Assembly: GCA_015711825.1 (NCBI GenBank)
Contig: JACVJD010000017.1
Span: 1 to 41,285, forward strand
Source of the DNA: Candidatus Solincola daggyaiensis
GTDB taxonomy: Bacteria; Actinomycetota; Geothermincolia; Geothermincolales; RBG-13-55-18
DNA length: 41,285 nt
Direction of reading: 5' to 3'
This document shows positions 10,925 through 20,516 of this stretch, piece after piece. Each line of letters opens with the position of its first letter. Positions within the stretch are counted from its first letter, which is position 1. Below the pieces are notes generated by a model. The model was not told the origin of the DNA. It searched no databases and saw only the letters and a program-made list of their open reading frames with translations. A program made the translations under genes and the position numbers.

Positions 10925-11635
10925 ATGAGTACTTTTCCCTTGACCGGGGAGGCCAGGTTGGAAAACCATCACCTGCGGGAATTCCTCGCCCATCTCGAGG
11001 AGGGATTGCGCGAGGAGGCCCGCGAGCTGTTCAAGCCCGAGAGCTTCGACCGCGAGCAATACATCTTCATCGATCAGGACGAGGCCACCCACCTCTACCT
11101 GGTCGAGGAGGGCACGGTGGAGGCCAACATCGTGCACGGGGACGGGAAACTGTTCATCCTCGGCTTCCTCTACCCGGGCGGCGTTTTCGGGGAGGGCGCG
11201 CTTTATGAAGACGGCATCTATTCTTATTCCGCGGTGGCGCGCGAGCCCACGCACACCTGGAGAATAAGCTGGGACGACCTGCAGTGGCTGGTCTCTCGTG
11301 ACCCGCTTTTCGCCCTCCACCTTATGAGAATAGTGGTCGCCAAGCTGGACCAGGCCTATTACAAGGATCGCTGCATCGCCGGGGAGAAAGTGGAGAAGCG
11401 CATAGCCTGCGTGTTGCTGAAGATGGTGGACGAGATAGGCATCAGCGACAAGTGCGGGCTGGTGATCGACACTCCCCTCACCAACCGCGACCTCGCCGGC
11501 CTGGTGGGATCGACGGAGGAGACGGTCTCGCGCATCATGAGCCGCCTGAAAAAGGAGGGCATCATGGCCGCGGACGGAAAGATGCTGGTGGTCAGGGACA
11601 AGGAGGCCCTCCTCGCCTACTTTGACGGCATTTGA
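10925..11635 (+). CDS. Crp/Fnr-family transcriptional regulator
   Basis: cNMP-binding fold (FLYPGGVFGEGALYEDGIYSYSAVARE) plus C-terminal HTH (TNRDLAGLVGSTEETVSRIMSRLKKEGII). Confidence 0.9.
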   Translation: MSTFPLTGEARLENHHLREFLAHLEEGLREEARELFKPESFDREQYIFIDQDEATHLYLVEEGTVEANIVHGDGKLFILGFLYPGGVFGEGALYEDGIYSYSAVAREPTHTWRISWDDLQWLVSRDPLFALHLMRIVVAKLDQAYYKDRCIAGEKVEKRIACVLLKMVDEIGISDKCGLVIDTPLTNRDLAGLVGSTEETVSRIMSRLKKEGIMAADGKMLVVRDKEALLAYFDGI

Positions 11636-12154: not shown

Positions 12155-13981
12155 ATGGCCGAGCAAGGGAGGGAGACCGGCGCGGGTCTGAAAGAGGAGT
12201 TCAGGTTCAGCCCCCGGCCCAACCGCGCCGCGGAGATCGCCTGGACGAACTGGGGCGAGGAAGCGTTCCGACGCGCCGAGGCGGAGGGGAAGCCCGTGCT
12301 TCTCTCCATTTCCGCGGTATGGTGCCATTGGTGCCACGTCATGGACGAGACCTCCTATTCGGACCCCGCGGTGATCGAGCTCGTAAACCGCCTATACGTG
12401 CCCGTGCGCGTGGACAGCGACCGCAACCCGGACCTCAACCGGCGTTACAACCAGGGGGGTTGGCCTACCACCGCCTTCCTGGACCACCGAGGAAATCTCC
12501 TAGCGGGCGCCACCTATATCCCTCCCGAGACCATGCGCACCGCCCTGCAGAGGATCGCGGATCTGTACCGCGAACACCAGGTGGATATCGACCTTGTGCA
12601 ACCTGATTCCTCTCCCCTTCCCTCCCCGCCAAGGGGGCTCGACCTGGCGATGGTGGAGGAAACGGGAGCCGCGGTGCTGCGCGCCTGGGACCGCATGTAC
12701 GGAGGGCTGGGCAGAGAGCCCAAGTTCCCCCAGGTCGAGGCCCTCGAGCTTGCCCTCGGCCTCTATGCCGATGAGGGCTACGGCGAGTACCTGGTCTTCG
12801 CGCGCACGACCCTGGAGGCCATGATCAGGGGCAACCTCATGGACAAGGTGGAGGGAGGATTTTTCCGCTACTCCACCACGCGCGACTGGTCCGTGCCCCA
12901 CTACGAGAAGATGCTGGCGGACAACGCCGGCCTGATCCCGGTACTGCTGAAAGCATACGCCCTGACGGGCGCCGAGGCGTTCAGGCGCACGGCGACGGAA
13001 ACGGCAGCCTTTATCCTCCACACCTTGAGCGACGGAAGGGAGCGTTTATACGGCAGCCAGGACGCCGACGAGGAATATTACCTCCTGGACGCCGCGGGCA
13101 GAAAGGGCCTCAACCCCCCTCCCGTGGATCGAACGGTATATGCCGACCAGGCGGCGCGAGCCGCGGCTGCGCTTCTTCAGGCAGGCATCGCACTCGCAAA
13201 GGATGAATATTACTCTCTGGGGCTTTCCGCCCTGGAATGGCTGTGGTCGCGCGCCTTTCAGCCGGGAGAGGGCATGGCTCATTACCTGGACGAGACGGGA
13301 CGACCGCGACGTCGGGGGTTGCTCGAAGACGGGGTCGAGGCGGCCATGGCTTTTCTGGCCGCCTACGGGTACAGTGGAGACCGCAGGTGGATGGAGCGGG
13401 CGCGGGAGCTGATCGAGCTGGTGGCGGAACGCCACTGGCGGGAAGATGAACCCCTCTTTCTTGACGTCTCCCCCGGCCACGAGCTTCCCGGCCTCAAACC
13501 TCTCCCCGCCGAGCTGCCCGCGCAGTCGCGTGCCGCCCAAGCACTGCTGACCCTGTGGGCATACGGGGGAGGCGACCACTGGCGCGAGCTGGCGGGCAGG
13601 GCCCTGGAGGCGATCGCGCCGGCCGCACCCGCTTACGGCTTCATGGCGGCGCCCTTTGCGCTGGCGGTGGATCTCTACCTGCGAGGTCCGTTGATAATAC
13701 GGCTCTCCGGACCGAAAACGGCGGGGACGTCATCCATGCTCAAGACCGCCGCCCTCTCCGCCAGGGCGAGGAGCACGCTTATCATGGGAGGGGAAACGGG
13801 AATAATGGAGGGGAAAGAGACGGCGGAGCTCTGCACCGTGGACAGGTGCGTTCTGCGCGCCACCGGCCATGAGGAGCTTAAAGAAGCGCTGGGCATCCAT
13901 CCCCGCGTGGAAACCGGGCACGGCGGCTTGAGACATACGACGCAGGCCGGGAAGGCGAACGGCACCGCGGAAGGAAGGTGA
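12155..13981 (+). CDS. DUF255 / YyaL-like protein (thioredoxin-like N-terminus and glycosidase-like helical barrel)
   Basis: FRRAEAEGKPVLLSISAVWCHWCHVMDETSYSD (CHWCH), GGWPTTAFLD, GLGREPKFPQ; RBS GGGAGGTGAAGGTA before ATG 12155. Confidence 0.85.
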   Translation: MAEQGRETGAGLKEEFRFSPRPNRAAEIAWTNWGEEAFRRAEAEGKPVLLSISAVWCHWCHVMDETSYSDPAVIELVNRLYVPVRVDSDRNPDLNRRYNQGGWPTTAFLDHRGNLLAGATYIPPETMRTALQRIADLYREHQVDIDLVQPDSSPLPSPPRGLDLAMVEETGAAVLRAWDRMYGGLGREPKFPQVEALELALGLYADEGYGEYLVFARTTLEAMIRGNLMDKVEGGFFRYSTTRDWSVPHYEKMLADNAGLIPVLLKAYALTGAEAFRRTATETAAFILHTLSDGRERLYGSQDADEEYYLLDAAGRKGLNPPPVDRTVYADQAARAAAALLQAGIALAKDEYYSLGLSALEWLWSRAFQPGEGMAHYLDETGRPRRRGLLEDGVEAAMAFLAAYGYSGDRRWMERARELIELVAERHWREDEPLFLDVSPGHELPGLKPLPAELPAQSRAAQALLTLWAYGGGDHWRELAGRALEAIAPAAPAYGFMAAPFALAVDLYLRGPLIIRLSGPKTAGTSSMLKTAALSARARSTLIMGGETGIMEGKETAELCTVDRCVLRATGHEELKEALGIHPRVETGHGGLRHTTQAGKANGTAEGR

Positions 13982-13986
13982 GGAAG

Positions 13987-15165
13987 ATGAAAGAAGTCTA
14001 TCTCGACCATTACGCCGCCACGCCTCTTCTGCCCGAGGCGCGCGAGGCCATGATGCCTTTCCTGGGGGAGCGTTTCGGAAACCCCTCCTCGCTTCACAGT
14101 CGGGGTGACGCGGCCAGGGAAGCGGTGGAGGAGGCGCGGGAGAAGGTGGCCGCCCTGGTGGGCGCAGAGCCCGAGGAGATCATCTTCACCTCCAGCGGCA
14201 CGGAGGCGAACAACCTCGCGGTAAAGGGTATAGCGGCGGGGTCGCGGCGCAAGGGGAGACATATCGTCCTCTCCTCCATCGAGCATTTCTCCGTTCTCCA
14301 CGCCGCCCGCTCACTGGAGAAAAAGGGTTACGAGCTGACCATGGTCCCCGTGGACGCCCAGGGCTCCATAGACCTGGAGGAACTGGAGGCGGCCATAGGC
14401 GACGACACCGTGCTGGTCTCGGTGATGGCCGCCAACGGGGAGATCGGCACCATCCAGCCCATCGCCGAGGCGGCCCGTATCGCCGCCGAGAAAGAGGTCC
14501 CCTTTCATACCGACGCGGTGGCCGCCGCGGGCACCCTGCCCCTGGACGTCAAGCAACCGGGGCTCTCCGCCCTCACCCTCTCCTCGGACATGATCTACGG
14601 GCCCCAGGGAGTGGGTGCGCTATGGGTGAAGCGGGGATTGCGGCTTATACCCATGCTCGACGGCGGGGTGCAGGAGGGGGGACGCCGGGGAGGCACGGAG
14701 AACGTGGCCGGGATCGTGGGCATGGGGGCGGCGGCGGAGGCCGCCAGGCGGGACATGGCCGAGAGGAGCGCCCGCCTGGCGGCTTTGCGCGACGCCCTCG
14801 TTTCCGCCCTGCCGCAGAGGATAGAGCACCTTTACCTCACCGGACACCCCACCCGGCGTTTGGCCTGGAACGCCAGCTTCGCGGTGGAGTTCGTGGAGGG
14901 CGAGGGCATGCTCCTCTTCCTGGACCAGAAGGGGGTGGCGGTATCCAGCGGCTCCGCCTGCACCTCGCGAGCCCTCAAGGGATCCCACGTGCTCTCCGCC
15001 TGCGGCATACCCGCGGAGCGGGCCCAGGGGTCGATACTTTTCAGCTTCGGCCTCCAGAACAGCATGGAGGACGTGGAGTACGTGCTGGAGGTCTTTCCTC
15101 CCATCGTGGAGCGGCTGCGACAGATGTCGCCGCTCTACGCCAAATATCTCAAGGAAAGGGGGTAA
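13987..15165 (+). CDS. IscS/NifS-like cysteine desulfurase homolog lacking the PLP-lysine
   Basis: MKEVYLDHYAATPLLPEAREAM, FTSSGTEANNLAVKG, persulfide Cys loop VSSGSACTSRALKGSHVL; PLP-Lys region reads TLSSDMIYGPQGVGALW. Confidence 0.88.
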   Translation: MKEVYLDHYAATPLLPEAREAMMPFLGERFGNPSSLHSRGDAAREAVEEAREKVAALVGAEPEEIIFTSSGTEANNLAVKGIAAGSRRKGRHIVLSSIEHFSVLHAARSLEKKGYELTMVPVDAQGSIDLEELEAAIGDDTVLVSVMAANGEIGTIQPIAEAARIAAEKEVPFHTDAVAAAGTLPLDVKQPGLSALTLSSDMIYGPQGVGALWVKRGLRLIPMLDGGVQEGGRRGGTENVAGIVGMGAAAEAARRDMAERSARLAALRDALVSALPQRIEHLYLTGHPTRRLAWNASFAVEFVEGEGMLLFLDQKGVAVSSGSACTSRALKGSHVLSACGIPAERAQGSILFSFGLQNSMEDVEYVLEVFPPIVERLRQMSPLYAKYLKERG

Positions 15166-15170
15166 CGATA

Positions 15171-15554
15171 ATGGCGCAGTACAGCGACGTGGTAATGGAT
15201 CACTTCACCAACCCCCGCAACGTGGGCGAGATCGAGGACGCCGACGGGGTGGGGGAGGTGGGCAACCCGGTGTGCGGGGACATGATGACCTTCTACATCA
15301 AGGTGGGCGAGGACGAGCGCCTCGAGGACGTGAAGTTCAAGACCTTCGGCTGCGGGGCGGCTATAGCCGTCTCCAGCATGGTAAGCGAGATGGCCAAGGG
15401 CAAGACGGTGGAGGAGGCCCTCAAGATAACCCGCGACGAGGTGGCGCAGGAGCTGGGAGGGCTTCCCAAGCAAAAGATGCACTGTTCCAACCTGGGGGCG
15501 GACGCCCTGCACCTGGCCATAGAGGATTACCTGAGCAAGAAAGGAAAGGGCTGA
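15171..15554 (+). CDS. iscU: IscU/NifU N-terminal-like Fe-S cluster scaffold protein
   Basis: MAQYSDVVMDHFTNPRNVGEI, GNPVCGDMM, FGCGAAIAVSSM, KMHCSNLGADAL: three conserved Cys and Asp. Confidence 0.93.
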   Translation: MAQYSDVVMDHFTNPRNVGEIEDADGVGEVGNPVCGDMMTFYIKVGEDERLEDVKFKTFGCGAAIAVSSMVSEMAKGKTVEEALKITRDEVAQELGGLPKQKMHCSNLGADALHLAIEDYLSKKGKG

Positions 15555-15557
15555 GAG

Positions 15558-15746
15558 ATGGAAGAGAACGGCAAAATAGGCGAAGGCACCTGCAAGTGCC
15601 CATACTGCGACCAGGAGCTGGCGCTCTGCGCCGACCTGCCGGTGACCTGCCAGCCATGCTCCATTGCCTTCGTGATATGCTCGGCTTGCGGCGGGCCCGT
15701 GCGCGAGGGCAGCGTAACCTGCCCCACCTGCGGCGCGAAGCCGTGA
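15558..15746 (+). CDS. 62-aa zinc-ribbon-like protein with ten Cys
   Basis: CKCPYC..C..CQPC..CSACGG..CPTCG pattern; 3 nt after iscU stop. Confidence 0.75.
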   Translation: MEENGKIGEGTCKCPYCDQELALCADLPVTCQPCSIAFVICSACGGPVREGSVTCPTCGAKP

Positions 15747-15798
15747 CGAGCATGCGGGCCGCGCCGGGGCATTTTTTCGCCGAAAGGAGGTGCTGTCC

Positions 15799-16284
15799 AT
15801 GAGCGAGGCACAGGACAAGGCGACCATAGTGGTGTTCAGCGGCGAGCTCGACCGCGCCCTGGCGGCCTTCAACATCGCCACCACGGCGGCCTCCATGGGC
15901 ATGGAGGTCACCATGTTCTTCACCTTCTGGGGGCTCAACGTGGTGGCCAAGGAGGGCGCCCGTGGAAGCGGCAGGAGCCCGCTGCAGAGGATGCTGGGGC
16001 TGGTGAACCGCGGCGGCGCCCGGCGCCTCAGGCTGTCACGTCTCGACATGCTGGGGGGCGGCAGGGCGGCCATGAAGAAGCTGATGCGCGCATACCGCAT
16101 GCCCTCCCTGGAGGAGATGATGGCCATGGCCAGGGAGCTGGGAGTGCGCTTTATCGCCTGCACCACCTCCATGGCCCTCATGGGGCTGGGGGAATCCGAT
16201 TTCATCCCCGAGGTGGACGAGTTCGCCGGCGCCGCCACCTACGTGGAGGAGGCCTCGCGTTCGGCGATAAATCTCTTCATCTAG
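15799..16284 (+). CDS. DsrE/DsrF-like family protein (DsrE2-type)
   Basis: ATIVVFSGELDRALAAFNIATTAASMGMEVTMFFTFWGLNVV and LGVRFIACTTSMALMGL (conserved Cys); RBS AAAGGAGGTGC. Confidence 0.88.
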   Translation: MSEAQDKATIVVFSGELDRALAAFNIATTAASMGMEVTMFFTFWGLNVVAKEGARGSGRSPLQRMLGLVNRGGARRLRLSRLDMLGGGRAAMKKLMRAYRMPSLEEMMAMARELGVRFIACTTSMALMGLGESDFIPEVDEFAGAATYVEEASRSAINLFI

Positions 16285-16303
16285 AGGGAAAGGAGGTGCG
16301 GCC

Positions 16304-16534
16304 ATGAAGGCGGACAGGACCCTTGACTGCGTGGGCCTCTACTGCCCCATGCCCATCGTCAAGACCTCCCAGGAGATAAGGGAGATGGGGGAAGGCGAGG
16401 TACTGGAGGTCATCGCCGACGACAAGGGCATAAAAAGCGACATGCCCGCCTGGTGCTCCAAGACCGGCAACGAATGCCTGAGCATAGAGGAGAGGGACGG
16501 GGAGTTCCACGTGTTCGTGCGCAAGAAGGGATAG
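16304..16534 (+). CDS. tusA: TusA-family sulfurtransferase
   Basis: LDCVGLYCPMPIVKTSQEIREMGEGEVLEVIADD: CPxP motif of TusA/SirA. Confidence 0.9.
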   Translation: MKADRTLDCVGLYCPMPIVKTSQEIREMGEGEVLEVIADDKGIKSDMPAWCSKTGNECLSIEERDGEFHVFVRKKG

Positions 16535-16583
16535 TCCGGCCAGGCACCCGGGAATACGAACGCCGAGACGAAAGGGGTGAGCG

Positions 16584-17081
16584 ATGGGCGAAAAGACGCG
16601 GAAGAACCTATACGAGGCCTACACGGGCGAGTCCAAGGCGGTGGTGAGGCTCAAGGCCTTCGCCAAGAAGGCGGACGAGGAGGAATACGAGGCGGTGGCC
16701 AGGCTCTTCCGGGCGGTGGCCGAGTCGGAAGCGGTGCACGCCTACAACAACCTGCGCCTGTTGCGGGAGATCAAGGACACCGAGACCAACCTGGAGGAGG
16801 CCCTGGCCAGCGAGCAGAAGATCGCCGCGGTGGGATACGACTCCTTCATCGCCGAGGCCGAGGCGGAAGGAGAGAAGGCCGCCGCCACCATGTTCGCCTA
16901 CGCGCGGGACGTGGAGGAGAGGCACGCCAAGCTCTACGAGGGAGCCTTGCAGCACATGGTCGCAGACCGCGTCCCCAATTACTACGTGTGCAGCGTGTGC
17001 GGATACGTGGCCGACGACGTCATACCGGAGAGGTGCCCTATCTGCGGCGCGCCCGAGGAACAGTTCTTCGAGGTGGTATAG
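16584..17081 (+). CDS. rbr: rubrerythrin
   Basis: Ferritin-like diiron Glu/His pattern (YTGESKAVVRLKAFA..., ARDVEERHAKLYE) and C-terminal rubredoxin YYVCSVCGYVADDVIPERCPICGAPEEQF. Confidence 0.93.
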   Translation: MGEKTRKNLYEAYTGESKAVVRLKAFAKKADEEEYEAVARLFRAVAESEAVHAYNNLRLLREIKDTETNLEEALASEQKIAAVGYDSFIAEAEAEGEKAAATMFAYARDVEERHAKLYEGALQHMVADRVPNYYVCSVCGYVADDVIPERCPICGAPEEQFFEVV

Positions 17082-17296: not shown

Positions 17297-17526
17297 CTAT
17301 TCGATGCCGCACTGCTTGAGGGATTCCATGACCTCCGCGAGGACCTTTTTCCTCTTCTCGATCTCCGCCAGCTTGGCCTCCACGTCCTGCATCTCGGGGT
17401 CGAAAACGCAGGCCCCGAAGGAGCAATCCACGCCCGCCAGCTCCTGCAGCTTTCCCGCGAGGACCTTGAGCTCCTCCTCGTAGTCCGCTATCTCCTTGCT
17501 GAGAAGTTCGTCCTTCTCGTTGGCCA
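17297..17526 (-). CDS. small coiled-coil hypothetical protein
   Basis: MANEKDELLSKEIADYEEELKVLAGKLQELAGVDCSFGACVFDPEMQDVEAKLAEIEKRKKVLAEVMESLKQCGIE; RBS AAGGAGGTAG. Confidence 0.7.
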
Positions 17527-17682
17527 TCGATGCTACCTCCTTCTCGCTCGATCCGGTCATCCCATACATTATACCCGAACTGCGCCGCTTTTCTACGTCG
17601 CAACGGCTCTTTTTTCGCCATCGCCCGGCGCGGGCGGAAAAAGCGCGCGCCGACGCCTTAGGCTGCGGCTCCTGCCGGCGGC

Positions 17683-19617
17683 TCAGGGCATCATGCGGTC
17701 GAAATAGAGGGACCGTTCCGCAACTATCCCCCCCTCGCAGGAGACCTCCATGCCCACTTCCTCGCGCTTTCCCACCTCGGATCCCACGTCCACCGTCACC
17801 CGTCTTTGAGGTGGCACGAGGTATTCGCGCTCCAGCTCCTCCTCCCCGCAGATGTAGTCCACCCTCGCCACCCGCTCACGCGGGCCGGGATTAAACAGCA
17901 CCAGCCACTGCTTGAAACCCGTACCCGTGCTCCCCTCGGCGAAAAGCCAGCGCTGCGAGCCTGTCGCCACCCCCGCGTCGCAGAACCCTCCCGCGAGATT
18001 GTGGGCCTGGAAATAGACGGTACGCTCCGCGGTCAGGGGCAAAAGGCTCAATACCTCCAGGGAGTAATCGCAATCGCGCGGGAGATCGGGGTCCAAGCGC
18101 AGCGTCTTCCGCTCCCCCGCCCCGACGGCCAACCTCTCCTCGCGCACCGATCCGTCGGACAAGTACGTCCTCACCAGCACCCAGGTGGCCTGCGCGCAGG
18201 GGTTGAAAAGGGCGAGGTAGGAATGATAGCGCTCCCGGGTGGTCCCCTCCGCGAAATAAAGCCGCGACGCCGGCTCCGCCATCCCCGCCGAGCAGCTCGC
18301 GCCCGAGCAGAAACCCCCGTAAAGGAAATATTGCGAGCGCTCCACCGCCACCGCCTCGCTGGAGCGCACGCTCGCGGAGTAGTCCCCCTCCGGGACGAGG
18401 TCGTTTACGCGCAGGGTGAGGCGCGAGAGGGGCGGCAGCTCCATGCTCTCGGGGCGCGTCTCCCCTCCCTGGCCATGGAGAACGACGTCAAGCGTAGCCG
18501 TCCTTTCCGTAGGGTTGAAAAAAGCCAGATACTCCTCGAAACCCGGCCGCACCGTGCCCTCGGGGAAATAGTGGACCTTGGCTCCCTCCCGCGCTCCCCT
18601 GGAGGTAAAGCCGCCCCCGTAGCCCGCGCCGCGGTTGAAAAAGAGCGTCCTCTCCGCCGCCACGGGCAGGGATGACTCCAGCACCGCCGAGATATCCCCT
18701 TTCCAGGGCACCTCCCGGTTCACGGCGATGGAGAGGCGGCCGCGTGCCGGTACCTCGTGATCCCTCGCCACCGCCTCCCCGCCGCAGTAATAACGGACGC
18801 GCAGGGAAACGGGAGATCGGTTGGGGTTAAGCACCAGCAACCACTCCTCGAAACCCTCGCGGGTGGTTCCCTCGGCGAAGATATGGCGCAGGGCAGGCTC
18901 CTCGACCCCCGGACCAGCCTCCCCTCCTCGTACCATCTTCTTCCATCCATAGAGCTCGCTCAGGGTGACGAAAGCGAAGCCGCGCGCGCGCAGCCCCCCC
19001 ACGATGCCGGTGACCAATTCATAGGTGGCCCGGCCGCCGAAGTGGAAGAGGACGATGCTTCCGTCCCTGGCCGAGGCGACGATGCGGTTCACGCGCTCCG
19101 GTACGGAAAGGTTGGTGTTGAGGGCGTCCATGCTGTCGAAGTCCCACATCACCGGGGCGAAGCCTGCCGAAGCCGCCGCGGCGGAGACCCTGGCGTCGAT
19201 AAACCCCCCGGGAGGGCGGAAGACGGGCAGGCTCTGTGCGGTGGCCGAGGTGATGACCGCCTGACAGGCGTTCAGCTCCTCCACGATCTGCTGGTCCGTG
19301 AGCTTGGTCAGCCAGGGATGGTTCTGGGTGTGGTTGCACACGTCCCAACCCAGGGAGTCCATCTCCCTCAGCAACTCCGGGTTCCTCTGCGCCCAGGAAC
19401 CGATGACGAAGGCGGAGGCGCGGATGCCCTGGGTGGAAAGGAAATCCAGGATACGGTGGTCGAAACCGTAACCGTCGTCGAAGGTGAGCACCACGCGGGG
19501 CTGCGAGGAGGCGCGCGCCCTCTGCAGGCCTCCGGGGATCCCGGCAAGCCACGCAAGCGAACCCGCGGCGAGGATGACGGCGAGGACATAGACGGGCAGC
19601 GCCGCCTTGACCGTCAT
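17683..19617 (-). CDS. NodB-type polysaccharide deacetylase with four C-terminal 'LYFAEGTTR..F..WL.LFNP' repeats
   Basis: VVLTFDDGYGFD, CNHTQNHPWL, FRPPGGFID; repeats begin RHIFAEGTTREGFEEWLLVLNP, VHYFPEGTVRPGFEEYLAFFNP, LYFAEGTTRERYHSYLALFNP, RWLFAEGSTGTGFKQWLVLFNP. Confidence 0.88.
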   Translation of the reverse strand: MTVKAALPVYVLAVILAAGSLAWLAGIPGGLQRARASSQPRVVLTFDDGYGFDHRILDFLSTQGIRASAFVIGSWAQRNPELLREMDSLGWDVCNHTQNHPWLTKLTDQQIVEELNACQAVITSATAQSLPVFRPPGGFIDARVSAAAASAGFAPVMWDFDSMDALNTNLSVPERVNRIVASARDGSIVLFHFGGRATYELVTGIVGGLRARGFAFVTLSELYGWKKMVRGGEAGPGVEEPALRHIFAEGTTREGFEEWLLVLNPNRSPVSLRVRYYCGGEAVARDHEVPARGRLSIAVNREVPWKGDISAVLESSLPVAAERTLFFNRGAGYGGGFTSRGAREGAKVHYFPEGTVRPGFEEYLAFFNPTERTATLDVVLHGQGGETRPESMELPPLSRLTLRVNDLVPEGDYSASVRSSEAVAVERSQYFLYGGFCSGASCSAGMAEPASRLYFAEGTTRERYHSYLALFNPCAQATWVLVRTYLSDGSVREERLAVGAGERKTLRLDPDLPRDCDYSLEVLSLLPLTAERTVYFQAHNLAGGFCDAGVATGSQRWLFAEGSTGTGFKQWLVLFNPGPRERVARVDYICGEEELEREYLVPPQRRVTVDVGSEVGKREEVGMEVSCEGGIVAERSLYFDRMMP

Positions 19618-19640
19618 GGAGCCGGGGGCGTTTTCGGCCC

Positions 19641-20516
19641 TCAACGCGCCAGCACCTCGACCACGTCTCCCACCGCCCGGCGCGCCACCCGCTCATCGGC
19701 GCCGCCCGAGAGCACGTAACACACGCCTTCCGGGAAAGACTCCTTGACCTTGCGGGCAAAGGAGGCGTAAACGCCGTCACCGAGCTCGAAGGCTCCGTAA
19801 TCGTCGCGGTGGCCGTCGTGCCCGAACACGATGAAAAGGAGGTCGTGCTCGAAATCACGGGCTGCCGCCAAGGCCTCGTCCACGCCCGCCAGGAAATGCC
19901 GGTCGTCCGCGTTGTGGGGAAGGGCGATGTCGATGTTCTTGGGCCCGCCGCTCTTTGCCATGCCGTATCCGGAATGAAAATTGACATGCAGCACCCCGGG
20001 ATCCGGACCCAGAATATCCCTGGTCCCGTCGCCGAAATGCGGATCGATGTCTATGATCGCGAAGCGCCGCAGGCCCGCGCTGCCGCGTAAGCGCGTTATG
20101 GCCATGGCCACGTCGTTGAGGAAGCAGAAGCCCCAGAAACCGTCGTGAGAGGCATGATGACCCGCCGCCCCCACGAAACAAAAGGACGCCAGGGCCCTTC
20201 CCGCCGCAACCTCCGTCGCCCCGACCACCACGGACCCCGCCGACAGCAGCGCGATTTCGTAGTAGCCGCTTGCCCTCACCCCCTGGAGATGAGACTCGCT
20301 GTGCACTTCGGCGGCAAGGTCCTCGTCGGCGGGCTTCGCCTCCAGCAAGCGTACGCTCTCCAGCTCGAGCAGTCCCCGAGACTCCAGTTCCTGGAAGGCA
20401 GGAGCGACGCGGCCCTTCAACGCGGGATATCCCTTATCGGAGAAAGCGGGATGATAGACCACCGCGACCTTGCAGGGATAGGTCAGGTCTTCGGCCGCCT
20501 CCGCCAAGCCCGTCAC
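19641..20516 (-). CDS. histone-deacetylase-superfamily (acetoin utilization / APAH-like) protein
   Basis: VGAAGHHASHDGFWGFCFLNDVAMAI, IDIDPHFGDGTRDI, FIVFGHDGHRDDYGAF. Confidence 0.85.
   Translation of the reverse strand: MTGLAEAAEDLTYPCKVAVVYHPAFSDKGYPALKGRVAPAFQELESRGLLELESVRLLEAKPADEDLAAEVHSESHLQGVRASGYYEIALLSAGSVVVGATEVAAGRALASFCFVGAAGHHASHDGFWGFCFLNDVAMAITRLRGSAGLRRFAIIDIDPHFGDGTRDILGPDPGVLHVNFHSGYGMAKSGGPKNIDIALPHNADDRHFLAGVDEALAAARDFEHDLLFIVFGHDGHRDDYGAFELGDGVYASFARKVKESFPEGVCYVLSGGADERVARRAVGDVVEVLAR

Follow-up and report, generated by a model that had tools for sequence, protein, structure and literature searches.

A Lys-Less IscS-IscU Pair Linked to TusA and DsrE-Family Sulfur Carriers in Geothermincolia, and a Putative Persulfide Relay to IscU

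The 41,285-nucleotide (nt) stretch from positions 1 to 41,285 of contig JACVJD010000017.1 of Candidatus Solincola daggyaiensis (assembly GCA_015711825.1), hereafter the window, belongs to Geothermincolia (Actinomycetota) and carries, all on the + strand, genes for a Crp-family regulator, a DUF255 protein, an IscS homolog devoid of the lysine that binds pyridoxal 5′-phosphate (Lys-less IscS; PLP), the scaffold IscU, a zinc ribbon, DsrE2, TusA, and rubrerythrin, in that order. This Crp-to-rubrerythrin gene set is a genuine operon. It was found that linkage to TusA and DsrE-family genes is specific to Lys-less IscS in archaea and bacteria, and that Lys-bearing IscS is near-absent from it. From the residues and the gene neighborhoods, we hold with moderate confidence that TusA and DsrE load persulfide onto Cys328 of this pseudo-desulfurase, which would pass it to IscU.

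Linkage of Lys-Less IscS to TusA and DsrE Across Phyla

Lys-less IscS was searched for in GTDB species genomes with a degenerate DNA pattern in which [ND]-x-[hydrophobic]-Y-G-P replaced H-K-x-Y-G-P, the neighboring genes being ignored. Outside the class, the survey rests on the matches listed from these genomes, and its totals are lower bounds, to be read as "at least". Among the matches listed, all were Lys-less IscS except for two distant NK sequences retaining the lysine, and they came from Bathyarchaeota, Asgard archaea, anaerobic methanotrophic archaea (ANME), Methanosarcinales, Thermoplasmatota, Chloroflexota, Myxococcota, Thermodesulfobacteriota, and others. Most of them adjoined a TusA gene. 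Many also had a gene of ~120 amino acids (aa) between TusA and IscS, which Pfam identified as DsrE. The order TusA-DsrE-IscS-IscU was found in Archaeoglobus fulgidus and Methanosarcina, whereas the window presented IscS-IscU-zinc ribbon-DsrE2-TusA, which was also the order in Chloroflexota and Myxococcota; two gene orders and two DsrE subtypes thus yield one common gene set. An oddity of a single lineage was ruled out, since Lys-less IscS with TusA/DsrE occurred in about 17 named phyla among the matches listed, some of which may be misplaced by metagenome bins.

As a control, those genomes, together with the classes to which the Archaeoglobi, Methanosarcinales, and Dehalococcoidia members belong, were searched with a pattern indifferent to the His-Lys pair; Lys-bearing paralogs from the window's class were also taken in. 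Among distinct IscS with adequate flanks, a TusA and/or DsrE-family neighbor accompanied 109 of 117 Lys-less sequences versus none of 53 Lys-bearing ones (0/53). After thinning to <70% identity, the proportions were 35/39 and 0/24, respectively (Fisher p = 1.3e-13), although the p-values of this linkage do not count independent events because the sequences are related. A later Actinomycetota sample added about 12 Lys-bearing loci, 1 of which had a TusA-like open reading frame (ORF) nearby.

In the open-licence literature, no description was found of TusA/DsrE linkage with Lys-less IscS/IscU. A previous sequence-only reading of this DNA had presented the operon as a candidate for an undescribed system; however, the Lys-less IscS-IscU pair itself is already known from A. 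fulgidus (PDB 4EB5) and from IscS1 of Methanosarcina acetivorans. The linkage names TusA and a DsrE-family protein as candidate sulfur donors for Lys-less IscS-IscU, and this can be tested in the genetically tractable Methanosarcina and the biochemically tractable A. fulgidus.

Loss of the PLP Lysine and Retention of the Relay Thiols

The Lys-less IscS of the window (13978-15165, with an alternative ATG start at 13987) retains the class V aminotransferase domain (Aminotran_5, PF00266, 1.3e-72). Its PLP-lysine site reads SSDMIYGP, as opposed to S(A/S)HK.YGP in Lys-bearing IscS, and the stretch around this site is ALTLSSDMIYGPQGVGAL, the Lys-bearing counterpart being S(A/S)HK.YGPKG. In this way, D204-M205 (codons at 14587-14592) occupy the place of the His-Lys pair, and both the Schiff-base lysine K206 and Q183 are absent (Met205 and Ala stand there), while Cys328 (codon at 14959-14961), which corresponds to the persulfide cysteine of Escherichia coli IscS, is retained. 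The window protein, the only one scored, fell under the NCBIfam equivalog cut-offs for IscS (368.5 versus 643.2 bits) and NifS (484.9 versus 530.75), and A. fulgidus IscS was among its closest natural PDB relatives.

The class orthologs read SD[LMG] at the same site, and therefore the lysine loss is not a sequencing error; a pseudogene was likewise ruled out, as orthologs of 67-91% identity carry the same replacement in intact reading frames, except for an internal stop in one genome. Over the 218 aligned IscS, Gln183 and Lys206 were kept in 69/69 Lys-bearing sequences and lost jointly in 149/149 Lys-less ones, in which residue 183 is Ala, Ser, His, or Val, and residue 206 is Asp, Gln, Leu, Met, Thr, or others. 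Cys328 was retained in all 218. The C-terminal SPLY motif was considered as a sign of IscU binding and proved uninformative, in part since the sequence ends had been trimmed.

The partner proteins were equally conserved in their thiols, with the TusA CPxP motif, the DsrE cysteine, and the C-D-C-C ligands of IscU being kept. In the window, IscU (15171-15554; NifU_N, and above the NCBIfam NifU_clost cut-off) presents Cys35, Asp37, Cys61, and Cys105. The DsrE2-like carrier (15799-16284; Pfam DrsE_2, PF13686, 1.7e-47) has Cys121, which was conserved in 43/43 sequences, and it scored under the SulfCarrDsrE2 equivalog cut-off of NCBIfam (75.6 versus 210 bits), being a divergent subtype. TusA (16304-16534; PF01206, 3e-27) contains the whole domain signature, namely Cys14-Pro-Met-Pro followed by two Asp at +26 and +32 (Asp40 and Asp46), and also scored under its NCBIfam equivalog cut-off (58.5 versus 78). 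In Lys-less IscS systems, PLP chemistry thus appears to be abandoned and every relay thiol preserved, as judged from these residues. According to a published figure legend, PLP is depicted in the A. fulgidus IscS structure (PMC9769115).

Conservation of the Operon Within the Class

The class was placed through related named contigs (Candidatus Geothermincola and Solincola, Actinomycetota), and 23 orthologous loci were compared. IscS and IscU were adjacent in 23/23 of them, and the zinc ribbon, DsrE2, TusA, and rubrerythrin followed in unchanged order wherever the contig continued, with two exceptions. In G001 (L055, G001:C22), the start of TusA seemingly runs into a rubredoxin-like tail and no DsrE2 is present, which reflects either a fusion by deletion or a faulty assembly; in G006, TusA and rubrerythrin are separated by a Crp-like gene. 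The order from IscS to rubrerythrin is thus kept in nearly all class relatives, and, together with the linkage beyond the class, this answers positively the search for conserved synteny that had been proposed as a check. Chance gene order was ruled out by this class-wide synteny.

The seven same-strand genes from DUF255 to rubrerythrin, separated by a 4-nt overlap and gaps of 5, 3, 52, 19, and 49 nt, were confirmed as the earlier reading had described them, in coordinates, spacing, and families (Pfam, the zinc ribbon being sub-threshold). Its delimitation of the operon held from IscS to rubrerythrin. However, the DUF255/Thioredox_DsbH protein with CHWCH (12155-13981; PF03190), a presumed accessory, was found solely in genomes of the window's order, whereas the more constant Crp/Fnr-family gene (10925-11635; Pfam cNMP_binding and HTH_Crp_2), the probable regulator of the unit, had been omitted. 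The latter lies upstream in most class genomes, and in several it ends 14-29 nt before iscS; therefore, it has a stronger claim than DUF255 to belong to the unit. The Crp/Fnr-family protein and its class orthologs also display three near-invariant cysteines (C150, C162, and C177 in the class alignment numbering), possible sensors of the redox state, of persulfide, or of an Fe-S cluster.

Between IscU and DsrE2, a small zinc-ribbon-like protein (15558-15746; PF13248 match just under the cut-off) has nine cysteines in 23/23 class sequences, and it recurs at this position in Chloroflexota and Myxococcota. The operon ends with a rubrerythrin carrying a rubredoxin-like domain (16584-17081; Pfam Rubrerythrin and RUBY_RBDX), with a probable role in oxidative protection.

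Relation to Known Systems

A protein of genome G067 (contig C1) is identical to PDB 4EB5 save one residue, and the genome was taken as A. fulgidus from this sequence. Upstream of its crystallized copy (L287, G067:C1) there is only a shortened, 94-aa DsrE ORF, and a second iscSU copy, 87% identical, is preceded by TusA and a full-length DsrE. The A. fulgidus IscS-IscU system (PDB 4EB5, 4EB7, 4HVK, 4R5F) resembles that of the window in its Lys-less IscS with a kept Cys-loop, adjoining an IscU with cluster ligands, and in its TusA/DsrE-family neighbors. However, it differs in the residues at the site (Asn-Asp versus Asp-Met), in the order TusA-DsrE-IscS-IscU, in a single-domain DsrE rather than DsrE2, and in the lack of an intervening zinc ribbon or rubrerythrin.

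In M. acetivorans, iscS1U1 has been described with four unknown genes alongside and the PLP lysine missing (PMC7585200). Seven Methanosarcinales-type loci carrying TusA-DsrE2-IscS-IscU, with an IscU of 211-252 aa and His-Thr at the IscS site, would match this isc1 (MA0808-MA0807) by shared features. As in the window, an IscS devoid of the PLP lysine adjoins IscU, but isc1 is distinguished by His-Thr at the site, H104D and Q183H, the long IscU extension, another gene order, and a long separate branch.

The IscS and IscU core is shared with the bacterial iron-sulfur cluster (ISC) system and with the minimal ISC system (MIS), the latter described with a cysteine desulfurase (PMC12192291), whereas the window's enzyme has no catalytic lysine and is linked to sulfur carriers; HscA, HscB, Fdx, and IscA are absent from the window cluster. 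The system is a variant within ISC/MIS, not a separate category. The E. coli Tus relay (IscS-TusA-TusBCD) has the TusA cysteine and two Asp at identical spacing, as well as a DsrE-family partner, but in that relay an active IscS supplies the sulfur and TusA accepts it, and the flow proposed for the window is reversed. Adjacent DsrE-family and TusA genes are also shared with the carriers of Hdr/Dsr sulfur oxidation, the linked partner in the window being IscS-IscU instead; no Hdr/Dsr gene was found among about 19 window proteins in a Pfam scan, and no genome-wide search for them was made.

A Proposed Persulfide Relay and Its Alternatives

In the proposed mechanism, a cysteine desulfurase would have been turned into a PLP-independent sulfur-relay platform in a variant ISC machine. 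DsrE2 and TusA would carry sulfane sulfur; we infer the order DsrE, TusA, IscS, as well as the direction of transfer and the sulfur source. The dimer of Lys-less IscS would receive TusA in the way that E. coli IscS does, with transfer directed inward, so that persulfide on Cys14 of TusA would move to Cys328 in the opposite IscS subunit and from there to the IscU cysteines, a [2Fe-2S] cluster being built on IscU. Cys328 may also bind the cluster transiently, just as this cysteine is a ligand of the nascent cluster in A. fulgidus (PMC9769115). Protection or reduction of thiols would fall to rubrerythrin and, in the window's order, to the thioredoxin-like DUF255 protein, and regulation of the unit to the Crp-family protein. 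The crystal structure of E. coli IscS-TusA shows TusA bound to one subunit, the distance between its cysteine and Cys328 of the second subunit being about 4 Å (PMC2854127), and mixed IscS2-IscU-TusA complexes form in which one IscS dimer holds one TusA and one IscU (PMC11302665). Run backwards, this geometry could therefore allow TusA to load Cys328, which would swing to IscU. Regarding the first carrier, DsrE of Allochromatium vinosum was persulfurated in vitro by sulfide alone (PMC3397948).

Several points weigh against this relay. Its support consists of linkage and residues, and in E. coli TusA competes with IscU. Sulfur flows in that bacterium from IscS to TusA (PMC2854127), two Lys-bearing IscS exist in the window's genome, one Lys-bearing IscS (L372, G311:C30) has a TusA-like ORF nearby, and 8 Lys-less loci have no recognized TusA/DsrE neighbor. 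Shared descent may also account for part of the linkage. An IscS tree was built from an alignment stripped of the columns of the site; in it, Lys-less IscS formed two or three separate groups (NQ/DL/DM, ND, and the long-branched HT), the window's IscS sitting in the NQ/DL/DM clade, separate from that of A. fulgidus. The lysine loss amounts to 2-3 changes on this tree, a single Lys-less clade was not rejected (p = 0.21 in the approximately unbiased (AU) test), and an independent-pairs test formed only 1-2 pairs; the independent evidence is therefore thinner than the counts would suggest, and an argument from many independent losses is not supported. Either the TusA/DsrE association was gained two or three times, or it was kept very long while the gene order rearranged.

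A dedicated PLP-independent Fe-S pathway of archaea and bacteria, in which inorganic sulfur would reach IscU through DsrE/TusA and Lys-less IscS, cysteine being unnecessary and the crystallized A. fulgidus IscS-IscU included, is put forward only tentatively and seems somewhat doubtful. It is rather unlikely that cysteine is still the source, a Lys-bearing IscS encoded elsewhere loading TusA and the Lys-less IscS-IscU acting as a satellite assembly site. This explanation draws on the E. coli precedent of TusA taking sulfur from IscS (PMC2854127) and on the window's genome, whose two further IscS are both Lys-bearing, one lying beside apparent cysteine synthase and Rrf2-type regulator genes. Because of these two enzymes, cysteine may remain the ultimate source there, through Lys-bearing IscS loading TusA. 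This genome further holds a distant class V homolog, a second IscU without an adjoining IscS, one SufB-type gene, and a second TusA-type match. However, 19 of 41 genomes with Lys-less IscS had no other IscS-like gene at E<=1e-25, lower-scoring SufS-type enzymes or bin gaps being possible; these comprise A. fulgidus, four other Archaeoglobi on large contigs, and 14 more. A non-cysteine source is therefore favored in those genomes, and a cysteine bypass is more plausible in Archaeoglobi than in the window's genome. The earlier proposal of persulfide delivery from TusA or DsrE2 to IscU through the Lys-less IscS thus fits the linkage and the intact thiols and is largely supported in its core, while its bypass of cysteine cannot be concluded for the window's genome.

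It is also unlikely that the Lys-less IscS serves solely as a cysteine ligand and docking surface, with IscU taking free sulfide and TusA/DsrE serving other acceptors, e.g., in tRNA thiolation. Works cited in PMC7585200, as well as PMC9769115, report that A. fulgidus IscS has no desulfurase activity and that its cysteine acts as a cluster ligand, which agrees with such a role; however, the contrast in TusA/DsrE linkage, nearly always present with Lys-less IscS and almost never with Lys-bearing IscS, would then go unexplained. A regulatory or stress pseudoenzyme restraining IscU and TusA under oxidative or sulfur stress is very improbable, for although rubrerythrin and Crp are syntenic throughout the class, rubrerythrin is just occasionally near in the archaeal gene order, and the conserved IscU cluster ligands and Cys328 point to assembly, not sequestration.

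If the relay from TusA and DsrE to IscU is true, a common Fe-S assembly of anaerobes draws persulfide from carrier proteins, not cysteine, which would bear on the assembly of clusters in sulfidic environments and on the annotation of every IscS homolog as a cysteine desulfurase. In this sense, the "dead" IscS copies beside TusA/DsrE suggest a widespread feeding of sulfur to Fe-S proteins without the usual desulfurase chemistry.

Other Features of the Loci and of the Window

In five Bathyarchaeota loci (L081, L093, L121, L125, L137), Lys-less IscS and IscU occurred with no TusA/DsrE recognized in the flank examined. In L062, L065, and L135, a 178-aa gene resembling, as read by eye, a rubrerythrin-type ferritin protein was found directly upstream of an NQ-type IscS.

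In the window, terminator-like sites across the region did not exceed their frequency in shuffles. A 90-aa gene that matched no Pfam family (17297-17569, - strand) is convergent to the operon, and its position is kept in most class relatives. It is followed by a polysaccharide deacetylase fused to DUF5719-type repeats (17683-19644, - strand), adjoining a histone-deacetylase-like gene. At the other end, positions 1-2754 are low in GC (0.48 versus about 0.63) and include a phage-type integrase (1497-2594) beside a tRNA-Val gene, which suggests the end of an integrated element.

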